Source: Lachnospiraceae bacterium (lineage in GTDB: Bacteria > Bacillota > Clostridia > Lachnospirales > Lachnospiraceae). Taken from it: a stretch of 64,000 bases of DNA. Every line of letters starts with the position of its first letter. The first letter of the stretch is position 1. Shown in pieces: positions 24,932 to 28,102 of this stretch. The notes beneath the pieces were generated by a model, which was given only the letters and a program-made list of their open reading frames with translations, searched no databases and was not told the DNA's origin. The position numbers and the translations under genes were made by a program. The DNA lies in contig FUZG01000001.1 in the NCBI GenBank assembly GCA_900168235.1, positions 186,001 to 250,000 on the forward strand, read 5' to 3'.

Positions 24932-25249
24932 TCAGCAACCCTTTCCGTCAATACTGCATGATGCACCGTTTGACGCCATGCTGACAGGCTCTTTTCCGAG
25001 CTTTTTAAGATATGATTTCCAATCAAGGAATATCTGTCCGTCTTCATCTACACAGGCCGGGATACCGATCCCGCCTGTTCCCCTTATGGGATCAAAAACC
25101 GTATCTGTATCACGAATCTTCAGGAACGCTTTTAAATCAGCAAGTTCCTCTGTGATATCAGCAAATTCGTACTCTATCCCAAGTTCATTAAAATTCTTTT
25201 CGATCTCGGTGCAGTCAGGGCACTTCCTGCTTCCATATACCTTCAGCAT
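24932..25249 (-). CDS. Glutaredoxin-like thiol protein
   Basis: This 105-residue protein starts MLKVYGSRKCPDCTEIE, a thioredoxin-fold first strand with a CPDC redox motif at 10-13. A conserved cis-Pro loop appears as GIGIPACVDEDG. The C-terminal tail carries two further Cys (SCSIDGKGC), an addition beyond the normal glutaredoxin length that could form a second disulfide or bind a ligand. It follows the SpeE-like gene in the same direction, 41 bases downstream, and may belong to that operon. Confidence 0.82.
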   Translation of the reverse strand: MLKVYGSRKCPDCTEIEKNFNELGIEYEFADITEELADLKAFLKIRDTDTVFDPIRGTGGIGIPACVDEDGQIFLDWKSYLKKLGKEPVSMASNGASCSIDGKGC

Positions 25250-25290: not shown

Positions 25291-26796
25291 TTAATTCCAG
25301 TTATCTACAGCTGTGTTGTAGTACTGCATGAGTACAGGTTTTGTAAGCTGGTTTATTGCAACCTTTTCTGAAATCTCGTCCTTTCCAAAAGTGAAAAGGC
25401 TCGCCATATTTTCATCAGTCAGATACTTCGTTTCAACATCTACGGAATAATCTCCATCAAGTTCCTGTCTGGATGCCATGTTGAATCCCCAGTCACCGAA
25501 AGCCGGTACCTCCAGATGATATGGCTTAACCTTCAGCCCTTCGCTGGCTATAGTCTTATTAATGCACCAGAAAGCATCCTTTGCATAGTAAGGTGATGTG
25601 GACTGAACGACCATCACGCCTTTTTCTGCAAGAGCACTTTTACAAAGTCTGTAAAAAACATTTGAATACAGCTTATTAAGCGACTCCGAATTTGGGTCCG
25701 GCAGGTCAACGATTATGAGGTCGTAGAGCTGTTTATTATTTTCAAGATATTCATACGCATCTTCCACATGAGCGTGAAGCTTCTCATTTAAGAGGCTTTT
25801 CTGATTGATGGAAGTGATCTTTTCATCAGTACTGCATATACGTATCATTTCCTGATCAAGATCTACGAGGTCGATGGACTTCACGTCCTGATATTTCAGC
25901 ACTTCGCGCACTGCCATACCGTCACCGCCGCCGAGTATCAGCACATTTTCCCTGTTCTGAACCCTGCTCATGGGAACATGGACAAGCGCCTCATGATACC
26001 TATACTCATCCGCCGTAGAAAACTGGCAGTTTCCGTCGATGTAGAGTCTCGTGTCATCCTTGTGTCTGGTCATCACTATCTTCTGATAAGGAGTCTGCTC
26101 GATGAGGATGATACGGTCTCTGTACAGACCGCCCTCGATAGCTCCGGAAATATTATCGGCGAAGACCATTCCGCTTATCATCAGTATTATCAGTCCGCCC
26201 GTAATGACCTTGTATATCTTCTCGTGCTCTATCCTGTCTGAAAATCTGAAAAGGATTATCGCCGCACATATGATATTCAGCAGTCCGCAAAGGAATGATG
26301 TGGCGAAATAACCGAGTTTTGGCAAAAGCAAAAGAGGAAACGCCACTGAGCCGATAAGTCCGCCTAAATAATCAAAACTGAAAATGGACGACAGAGTCAT
26401 TTTCAGATTCTGCTCGTCCGCTTCTATGATCCGCGTAAGTACCGGGATCTCTGCCCCTGCAAGTGTTCCGATCATGATGGTTATGAGATACATGACCACT
26501 GCATAGGCTTCTATGTAGATATTTGCCATGAAAAGGATCAGGGAGCTCAGACCTCCCACTATTCCGATCCCGATCTCGATAGTGATAAAGATATTAAAAA
26601 GCTTCTTCCCGAAATATCTCGATATATATGAGCCAAGTCCCAGTGCACACATGTAAAAACCGATGGTAGTGGAATACTGCATGGTACTGTTTCCGAGAAG
26701 ATAGGAACTGACTGCGCTTATGATCAGCTCATAGCACATGGAACAACCTGAGATGATAAGCGTAGTCAGCATTAAAACTCTGTATTTTCCGGACAT
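25291..26796 (-). CDS. Membrane-fused spermidine-synthase-like aminopropyltransferase
   Basis: This 501-residue protein has about seven membrane helices in the first 220 residues, then a spermidine-synthase-like Rossmann domain. The SAM-type glycine motif is ILGGGDG at 287-293, followed by the acidic DLVDLDQ. The catalytic-region motif reads VDLPDPNSESLNKLYS near 364, differing from the D-S-x-DP-x-G-P of soluble SpeE. The C-terminus GDWGFNMAS is typical of this membrane-bound subgroup. The start overlaps the DUF350 stop by one base (TAATG). Annotations call such proteins polyamine aminopropyltransferases, but their acceptor is not evident from sequence; a membrane-located acceptor is possible. 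Confidence 0.85.
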   Translation of the reverse strand: MSGKYRVLMLTTLIISGCSMCYELIISAVSSYLLGNSTMQYSTTIGFYMCALGLGSYISRYFGKKLFNIFITIEIGIGIVGGLSSLILFMANIYIEAYAVVMYLITIMIGTLAGAEIPVLTRIIEADEQNLKMTLSSIFSFDYLGGLIGSVAFPLLLLPKLGYFATSFLCGLLNIICAAIILFRFSDRIEHEKIYKVITGGLIILMISGMVFADNISGAIEGGLYRDRIILIEQTPYQKIVMTRHKDDTRLYIDGNCQFSTADEYRYHEALVHVPMSRVQNRENVLILGGGDGMAVREVLKYQDVKSIDLVDLDQEMIRICSTDEKITSINQKSLLNEKLHAHVEDAYEYLENNKQLYDLIIVDLPDPNSESLNKLYSNVFYRLCKSALAEKGVMVVQSTSPYYAKDAFWCINKTIASEGLKVKPYHLEVPAFGDWGFNMASRQELDGDYSVDVETKYLTDENMASLFTFGKDEISEKVAINQLTKPVLMQYYNTAVDNWN

Positions 26797-27221
26797 TACT
26801 GGATAACTCCGCTGATGATAAGTGCGATTCCGACGAAGATACCGAACACCATGATACCGGCAGCTTCGTTTTTCTTAGCGATCTCTACGTTGAAATTAAA
26901 TCTGCGGTTCACGAGATCGACGAGGAAATATGCCACCATGAAAAATACGATACCGAGAACAGCGTAGATAAGCGTGTCAACAACTCCTGTGATGAGCGCA
27001 AGCTCTTTTTCCGCCATAGTGATAGTGGACACAGAGGAACGTATCACCAGTCCGAGACCTATATAGATTCCTGCGGATACCCAGCCAATCGCCTTATTTC
27101 CTTCAGTGATCTCCTTCGGAAAATCAGCCGGGAGGATCAGATCGATAAGGGCATAACCTGCTATCATGATCACCAGACCCACTATTACATAAACTACCAG
27201 TTCCAAAATTGTGCTAAGCAT
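26796..27221 (-). CDS. DUF350 family membrane protein
   Basis: This 141-residue integral membrane protein has four hydrophobic helices arranged as two internal repeats. GYALIDLILPADFPKEITEGNKAIGW in the first half corresponds to AYFLVDLVNRRFNFNVEIAKKNEAAG in the second. Each loop ends with a small polar N-x-A-x-G motif, as in DUF350. It is translationally coupled to the SpeE-like gene and follows speD by 35 bases. DUF350 genes recur beside SpeD- and SpeE-like genes in other bacteria (general knowledge); the function is undetermined. Confidence 0.85.
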   Translation of the reverse strand: MLSTILELVVYVIVGLVIMIAGYALIDLILPADFPKEITEGNKAIGWVSAGIYIGLGLVIRSSVSTITMAEKELALITGVVDTLIYAVLGIVFFMVAYFLVDLVNRRFNFNVEIAKKNEAAGIMVFGIFVGIALIISGVIQ

Positions 27222-27256
27222 TTTTTACGTCTCCTTATATTTTCTGTATAAACTGA

Positions 27257-27619
27257 TTAAGCGCCTTTTTCTTTTTCCCCCAAGGGCGCCACCTTCCGTT
27301 CTATACGATTGATCTTTGTTTCCGAAGCTCCAAAGGCTTCTTTCAGGCTCTCCGTGAGTTTTTCCACAACAAATTCCCGGCATGAAAAAACATCAACCGC
27401 TGCATAACCATATTCGGGCCATGTATGAATGGAAAAATGTGATGTGCTGATAACTGCGAAATATGTGATACCGATAGGTTGAAATTTATGTACACACTCT
27501 TCTACGATCTCCGCACCTATAGAGGCTATCGCGCTTTTTGCTATCTCGCGGATTCTTTCTTCGTTATCAAGTACCGATCTGTCACAGCCATAAAGATCTG
27601 CTGTTACCTGTATTGCCAA
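27257..27619 (-). CDS. speD: S-adenosylmethionine decarboxylase proenzyme-like (SpeD), variant processing site
   Basis: This 120-residue protein is a pyruvoyl-dependent decarboxylase of the prokaryotic SpeD family. The signature block STSHFSIHTWPEYGYAAVDVFSC spans 58-80. Ser60 is the expected pyruvoyl precursor, with His65 and Cys80 at the usual catalytic and processing positions. The residue before Ser60 is Thr59, where family members normally have Glu at the cleavage bond, and Cys80 is followed by Arg rather than Gly. AdoMet decarboxylation would supply the aminopropyl donor for the SpeE-like protein. Some SpeD homologues have other substrates, so the activity needs testing. Confidence 0.82.
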   Translation of the reverse strand: MAIQVTADLYGCDRSVLDNEERIREIAKSAIASIGAEIVEECVHKFQPIGITYFAVISTSHFSIHTWPEYGYAAVDVFSCREFVVEKLTESLKEAFGASETKINRIERKVAPLGEKEKGA

Positions 27620-27635
27620 TTTTTACTCCTTAAAA

Positions 27636-27971
27636 CTATTCACGGCATCTATTTTCTTCATTCTTGATCTCCCAATGAATGAGAAGTGTGAGTGCCGCAC
27701 GCAAAGCGATTATCGCTCCAAGTATACCAAGTTCTGACCATTCACGCACTACTACCGTACGAAGAACCTCGCCGCCGAGCTTAAATTCCAGTGCAAGCGC
27801 GATTCCTTCCGCAAGGTCCAGACGTATGGACATGTCCTTTTTCAGCCACCTGAAAAAGCACTTAAGCGCCGTGTAGACCAATATGCAGATACCGAAAAAC
27901 TCCAGTCCGAGCGTAGAAAACTCTACCACATACCGCAGGATAAACTCTGCACTCTGATAAGCAGTCTCCAT
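27636..27971 (-). CDS. DUF1622 family membrane protein
   Basis: The start at 27971 is set by GGGAGAGG five bases upstream; an upstream TTG lacks a site. The 111 residues have three hydrophobic segments. The C-terminal half carries the family block LAEGIALALEFKLGGEVLRTVVVREWSELG...IALRAALTLLIHWEI, which I recognise as DUF1622. It is the first gene of the leftward DUF1622-speD-DUF350-speE unit. Function unknown; all partners except SpeD are membrane proteins. Confidence 0.8.
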   Translation of the reverse strand: METAYQSAEFILRYVVEFSTLGLEFFGICILVYTALKCFFRWLKKDMSIRLDLAEGIALALEFKLGGEVLRTVVVREWSELGILGAIIALRAALTLLIHWEIKNEENRCRE

Positions 27972-28063: not shown

Positions 28064-28102
28064 AAAGAAGCCGTGGCTTTTATATAAAACCACGGCTTTG
28101 GA
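28064..28102 (-). terminator. Terminator of the ABC exporter operon
   Basis: AAGCCGTGG pairs perfectly with CCACGGCTT around a loop of about 14 bases; on the minus strand the stem is followed by CTTTAATG. It lies shortly after the stop at 28127. Confidence 0.75.

Follow-up and report, generated by a model that had tools for sequence, protein, structure and literature searches.

According to PMC12803844 (with reference to Li et al. 2019, Biochem J 476:2579), experiments have shown that bacterial relatives of fungal fusions between a membrane domain and an aminopropyltransferase take no part in making spermidine or spermine; the statement rests on other members of the family and is taken via papers that cite Li et al. 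2019. 7TM-SpdSyn, DUF350 and DUF4178 proteins are furthermore described in PspA operons, for which aminopropylation of other substrates has been suggested and linked to membrane stress (PMC11237479). The pair PA4773-PA4774 was considered as a further model and rejected, since PA4774 is a 349-aa thermospermine synthase (PMC11107197) and not a 500-aa membrane fusion. Within the window (i.e., the whole analysed stretch of 64,000 nt), SpeD, a membrane-fused SpdSyn-like protein and DUF350 are encoded together, which is the three-gene combination of the known system. Li et al. 2019 reportedly propose an acceptor other than putrescine and note DUF350.

The first-pass annotation described four compactly arranged genes at 25291-27971, which is borne out by coordinates, strand and family profiles. 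All four lie on the minus strand in the order DUF1622, SpeD, DUF350, membrane SpeE, with the following features.

28068-28098, minus strand: intrinsic-terminator-like hairpin of 13 pairs just upstream of the likely operon (pattern scan; consensus match only)
27636-27971, minus strand: first gene of the likely operon, encoding a small membrane protein of the DUF1622 family, 111 aa with ATG start (PF07784, 1.8e-19)
27257-27619, minus strand: SpeD of the class 1b AdoMet decarboxylase family, 120 aa, TTG start (PF02675, 1.8e-36; TIGR03330, 108.6 bits)
27440-27445, minus strand: codons ACA and TCA of Thr59 and Ser60, between which cleavage is predicted, with Ser60 as the pyruvoyl-forming residue (sequence; alignment to T. 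maritima E62-S63)
26796-27221, minus strand: DUF350 (YjfL family) membrane protein, 141 aa (PF03994, 8.3e-29)
25291-26796, minus strand: membrane-fused aminopropyltransferase (SpeE), 501 aa (NF002956, 605.6 bits; hydropathy; AF2 model; structure matches)

Since the spacings are short (16 bp between DUF1622 and SpeD, 35 bp between SpeD and DUF350, and a 1-bp overlap, TAATG, between DUF350 and SpeE), the genes very likely form an operon. The SpeD TTG start is preceded by an AGGAG-like site, and the terminator-like hairpin (28098-28068) stands between the operon and upstream ABC transporter genes. A scan of the whole window at Rfam gathering scores returned no riboswitch or other known RNA upstream of the operon. 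A glutaredoxin-like gene of 105 aa (24932-25249, minus strand; CPDC motif, C-terminal CSIDGKGC) follows 41 bp after speE; it was rejected as a fifth member because it is absent from the other operon loci.

The window SpeD, the sole PF02675 protein of its 3.79-Mb Lachnospiraceae-type Clostridia genome, scores well above both family cut-offs (PF02675: 125 bits, cut-off 25; TIGR03330: 108.6 bits, cut-off 75.65), i.e., it matches the class 1b profile. Its AF2 model (pLDDT 91.5) finds T. maritima AdoMetDC TM0655 (1vr7/1tlu) as best PDB match with an rmsd of 1.5-1.6 A, such that the fold is shared. The sequence around the processing site reads ...FAVIS-T59-S60-HFSIHTWPEYGYAAVDVFSC80, where T59, S60, H65 and C80 align with E62, S63, H68 and C83 of the T. 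maritima enzyme. Ser63, His68 and Cys83 are essential for AdoMetDC processing and catalysis (PMC10407285), and all three are kept. Also conserved are F46, W67 and E69, the equivalents of T. maritima F49, W70 and E72; together with P48 and P68 they are invariant or nearly so in SpeDs with either Thr or Glu before the pyruvoyl-forming Ser (in the following, Thr-type and Glu-type). We take F49, W70 and E72 to be AdoMet-pocket residues in AdoMetDC structures, and F46, E69 and T52 correspond to Phe223, Glu247 and Ser229 of human AdoMetDC. Compared to TM0655, the window SpeD differs at E62 (T59), S55 (T52), G56 (Y53), V58 (A55) and T82 (S79). Since several of these positions near the scissile bond depart from canonical SpeDs, substrate or activity could have changed.

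Glu at position -1 is usual in class 1b AdoMetDCs; it is not named as essential in PMC10407285 and we hence did not treat it as defining. In the window SpeD this feature is absent, i.e., the annotated replacement of Glu by Thr59 before the pyruvoyl Ser is confirmed by the alignment to T. maritima. We compared 101 SpeDs, comprising the closest relatives and their search neighbours, which were gathered irrespective of the residue at -1. Thr is found in 37 and Glu in 64 of them: Thr occurs in all 37 members of one Clostridia clade that is sited in this operon type, while all 64 other SpeDs carry Glu. Thr59 is thus a subgroup trait, which the annotation had proposed to check. The Thr-type SpeDs form a single clade in the maximum-likelihood tree, with moderate support (86/75) from few columns. 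Relative to T. maritima, the clade also shows S55 replaced by Thr (Ser in five members) and G56 by Tyr (Gly kept in one); Ala in place of V58, Ser in place of T82 and three differences in the N-terminal part are also fixed or nearly fixed. As all 37 clade members, which represent many genera, carry this Thr, we rejected chance or a sequencing oddity as its origin. Of 397 searched genomes from the window's family, 15 gave a SpeD hit with an E-value of 1e-15 or lower: the 13 Thr-type SpeDs each adjoin DUF4178 and/or DUF350, and neither of the two Glu-type SpeDs does. The phage search gave nothing but SpeDs of cyanophages and others, none of which reached 60% identity, and these were set aside. 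As far as could be checked, the window SpeD appears to belong to a separate sequence branch that has not been described so far.

Does the replacement change what SpeD does? Tandem SpeD homologues at four loci (L060, L067, L082, L085) read ETSLISGHF, i.e., they also carry Thr at -1, and resemble the SpeDC ornithine decarboxylases described in PMC10407285. At these loci, the SpeD and SpeDC-like genes stand in tandem and are followed by a soluble SpeE. Because SpeDC-class enzymes with Thr are processed and active (PMC10407285), Thr at -1 should in principle not block cleavage. The likeness also raises the possibility of a switch to ornithine or arginine (SpeDC/SpeDA-like), by which SpeD would supply putrescine or agmatine. 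In its favour, the window SpeD shares with the SpeDC-type homologues both Thr at -1 and the FSC motif with its Ser, and this Thr sits at one of the four positions diagnostic for ornithine decarboxylases (Gln, Thr, Phe, Tyr; PMC10407285), as mapped onto the window SpeD by alignment to the SpeDC-like homologues. The other three read A55, T66 and A74 in place of Gln, Phe and Tyr, such that only 1/4 diagnostics is found. Furthermore, the WPE and FxP motifs, which SpeDC lacks, are retained in the window SpeD (P48, W67, P68 and E69, whose equivalents are lost in SpeDC-like proteins); the two conserved Pro are thereby both kept, and one of them is presumably the marker that PMC10407285 uses to tell AdoMetDC from ADC. 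The ornithine-decarboxylase-like sequences also stand on a separate, very long tree branch, and the anomalous SpeDs of PMC10407285 come from genomes without SpeA/SpeC, whereas SpeA, AguA and AguB are present here. Judged by these residues, the window SpeD is not a SpeDC, and the first-pass idea of another decarboxylase activity, poorly backed by one matching diagnostic against three that differ and a retained AdoMet pocket, is improbable. We regard it as still more improbable that SpeD has lost its enzymatic role and acts as a regulatory or structural subunit. Several changes at the processing site, including the bulky Tyr53 for Gly56, would fit such a role; against it, the equivalents of S63, H68 and C83 are invariant in 37/37 clade members, and 18 positions are invariant across both the Thr-type and the Glu-type SpeDs.

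The membrane SpeE matches NF002956 (PRK03612) with 605.6 bits (cut-off 472) over residues 5-500, i.e., with the membrane part included. Seven TM helices are predicted (about 8-212), followed by a C-terminal SpeE-fold domain (about 228-480). Searching its AF2 model with Foldseek/VIA yields solved dcAdoMet-binding aminopropyltransferases, among them spermidine and thermospermine synthases, with Z of about 30-34; these matches concern the transferase domain, such that the membrane half is hardly tested by them. The motif D364-L-P-D367-P-N369 was annotated as a departure from D-S-x-D-P. The reading of the motif is correct, but it is not unusual: all 25 membrane SpeEs compared carry DLPDPN (among them four distant Bacillota at 38-46% identity to the window SpeE) and both catalytic Asp are kept, so the motif is ordinary for the family. 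Soluble relatives have DLxDP, too, and the corresponding motif of thermospermine synthase is DLADP; we therefore dismissed an anomaly. GGGDG, the Asp of LVDLD, DA and both Asp of DLPDP are likewise invariant or nearly so.

On which side of the membrane the transferase domain works can be approached via the charges of the loops. Averaged over the 25 SpeEs, the number of Lys+Arg is 2.5 for the N-terminus and 2.5, 2.3 and 3.7 for loops 2-3, 4-5 and 6-7, whereas loops 1-2, 3-4 and 5-6 average 0.04, 0 and 0.7; nine divergent relatives mostly show the same pattern. Given seven helices and an N-terminus placed inside by this strong positive-inside bias, the transferase domain would work outside the cell. 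In this arrangement, the membrane domain, perhaps together with DUF350, would carry the dcAdoMet of the Thr-type SpeD to the other side, where a lipid, wall polymer or surface protein would be aminopropylated. We consider this unlikely, since the argument is one of charge bias only, helices 5 and 6 form a single run in the AF2 model (overall pTM 0.59) and a cytosolic donor favours the inside.

The gene content of the loci informs about likely partners. Most Thr-type loci encode a zinc-ribbon protein, SpeD, DUF4178, DUF350 and membrane SpeE in that order. In the window's genus, DUF1622 precedes SpeD, and DUF4178 and the zinc ribbon are paired elsewhere; in the window genome, this pair stands alone about 190 kb from the operon on the same contig (L178:5538-6961; G000:C15:19537-20960). 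DUF1622 takes its operon place only in this genus, and its matches are confined to four genus genomes and one further locus (L058). At another Thr-type locus (L018), a band-7/flotillin gene lies upstream. A 595-aa frame (L173:1462-3246; G668:C57) carries a Glu-type SpeD at its C-terminal end, fused to an N-terminal part which, judged by eye, is similar to methyltransferase-fold aminopropyltransferases of the branched-polyamine type.

The operon module is accessory, being present in 4/37 genus genomes: SpeD, DUF350 and membrane SpeE each occur in G000, G009, G014 and G031 and in no other. The chance of two such four-genome sets coinciding is 1 in 66,045 if genomes are independent; since the genomes are related, the coincidence says only that these genes are acquired or lost together. 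The identical distribution suggests that SpeD is dedicated to the membrane SpeE. DUF4178 occurs in three of the four SpeD-bearing genomes, the fourth being 75% complete, and is a likely functional partner because it shows the same genome pattern although it is not adjacent. In distant Bacillota (L139-L147), the same SpeE is encoded in DUF4178-PspA-...-DUF350-SpeE operons without SpeD. Seven of these nine genomes carry a SpeD elsewhere, with best matches to the Glu type; in the other two, G099 (L141, 99% complete) and G334 (L139, 96% complete), which do have a membrane SpeE, no PF02675 SpeD was detected. A SpeD-made donor is thus not universal for the membrane SpeE family.

The window genome also carries a separate and complete SpeA-SpeE-CASDH-CASDC-AguA-AguB cluster (the last two genes named by eye from sequence resemblance), i.e., an AdoMet-independent route to spermidine which needs no dcAdoMet. 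Its soluble SpeE homologue has an NDCTDPLG motif (L121:7853-8710; G000:C14:77852-78709). This soluble SpeE is also found in G007, G012 and G033, all of which lack SpeD (the cluster itself was seen in G033); SpeD thus tracks the membrane SpeE, along with DUF350 and DUF4178, and not the spermidine cluster.

Taken together, we favour, with a probability of about 0.6, the reading that the operon is a dedicated membrane aminopropylation module, in which SpeD would make dcAdoMet and SpeE would aminopropylate a membrane-proximal, probably non-putrescine acceptor. The gene set and its conservation, the Thr fixed in the clade, the kept catalytic residues and the co-occurrence were observed directly, while SpeD cleavage, AdoMet as substrate and the function of the module are inferred. 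SpeD would autocleave between Thr59 and Ser60, whereby Ser60 would become the pyruvoyl group, and would then decarboxylate AdoMet to dcAdoMet. From this donor, the membrane-anchored SpeE would move the aminopropyl group to the acceptor, with DUF350 and DUF1622 as putative membrane partners and the DUF4178 and zinc-ribbon proteins, encoded elsewhere in the genome, as probably cytosolic ones. The alternative of ordinary polyamine synthesis, i.e., dcAdoMet from SpeD being used by the membrane or soluble SpeE to make spermidine, thermospermine or spermine, agrees with the NCBIfam naming of NF002956 as a polyamine aminopropyltransferase, with thermospermine synthase (DLADP at the same motif) as top structure match and with the presence of a soluble SpeE. 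We nevertheless think it unlikely, because CASDH/CASDC can supply spermidine in this genome, the soluble SpeE occurs in genomes without SpeD, and bacterial relatives of such fusions are not spermidine or spermine synthases according to PMC12803844. The same statement, the separate spermidine cluster and the co-occurrence of SpeD with membrane SpeE lend partial support to the first-pass proposal of a membrane product instead of free spermidine.

If the module reading is true, bacteria use dcAdoMet beyond polyamines. The Clostridia module would be useful for finding the acceptor, since it is accessory, stands apart from the spermidine pathway and has its own SpeD branch; spermidine should be unaffected by its loss, and the modified target should become apparent. 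Conservation of the Thr is furthermore relevant to the question of which residues preceding the Ser are required for AdoMet as compared to ornithine.

Compared to the clusters of Li et al. 2019, as far as they are portrayed in the papers citing them (ref. 32 in PMC12803844; ref. 89 in PMC11237479), the window shares SpeD, the membrane-fused aminopropyltransferase and DUF350 as well as a spermidine supply independent of them. It differs in the Thr at -1 and the other clade-fixed changes of SpeD and in DUF1622 standing where relatives have the zinc ribbon and/or DUF4178. With the PspA/CesT-linked operons (7TM-SpdSyn, DUF350 (YjfL), DUF4178, DUF4247, DUF2617; PMC11237479), the type seen in L139-L147, it has the 7TM-SpeE, DUF350 and DUF4178 families in common; in contrast to these, the window operon contains SpeD, has no PspA, lipoprotein or DUF2617, and leaves DUF4178 at its distant site. 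The overall system is of a known kind; what is new, as far as could be checked, is the clade of Thr-type SpeDs and the splitting of the operon.
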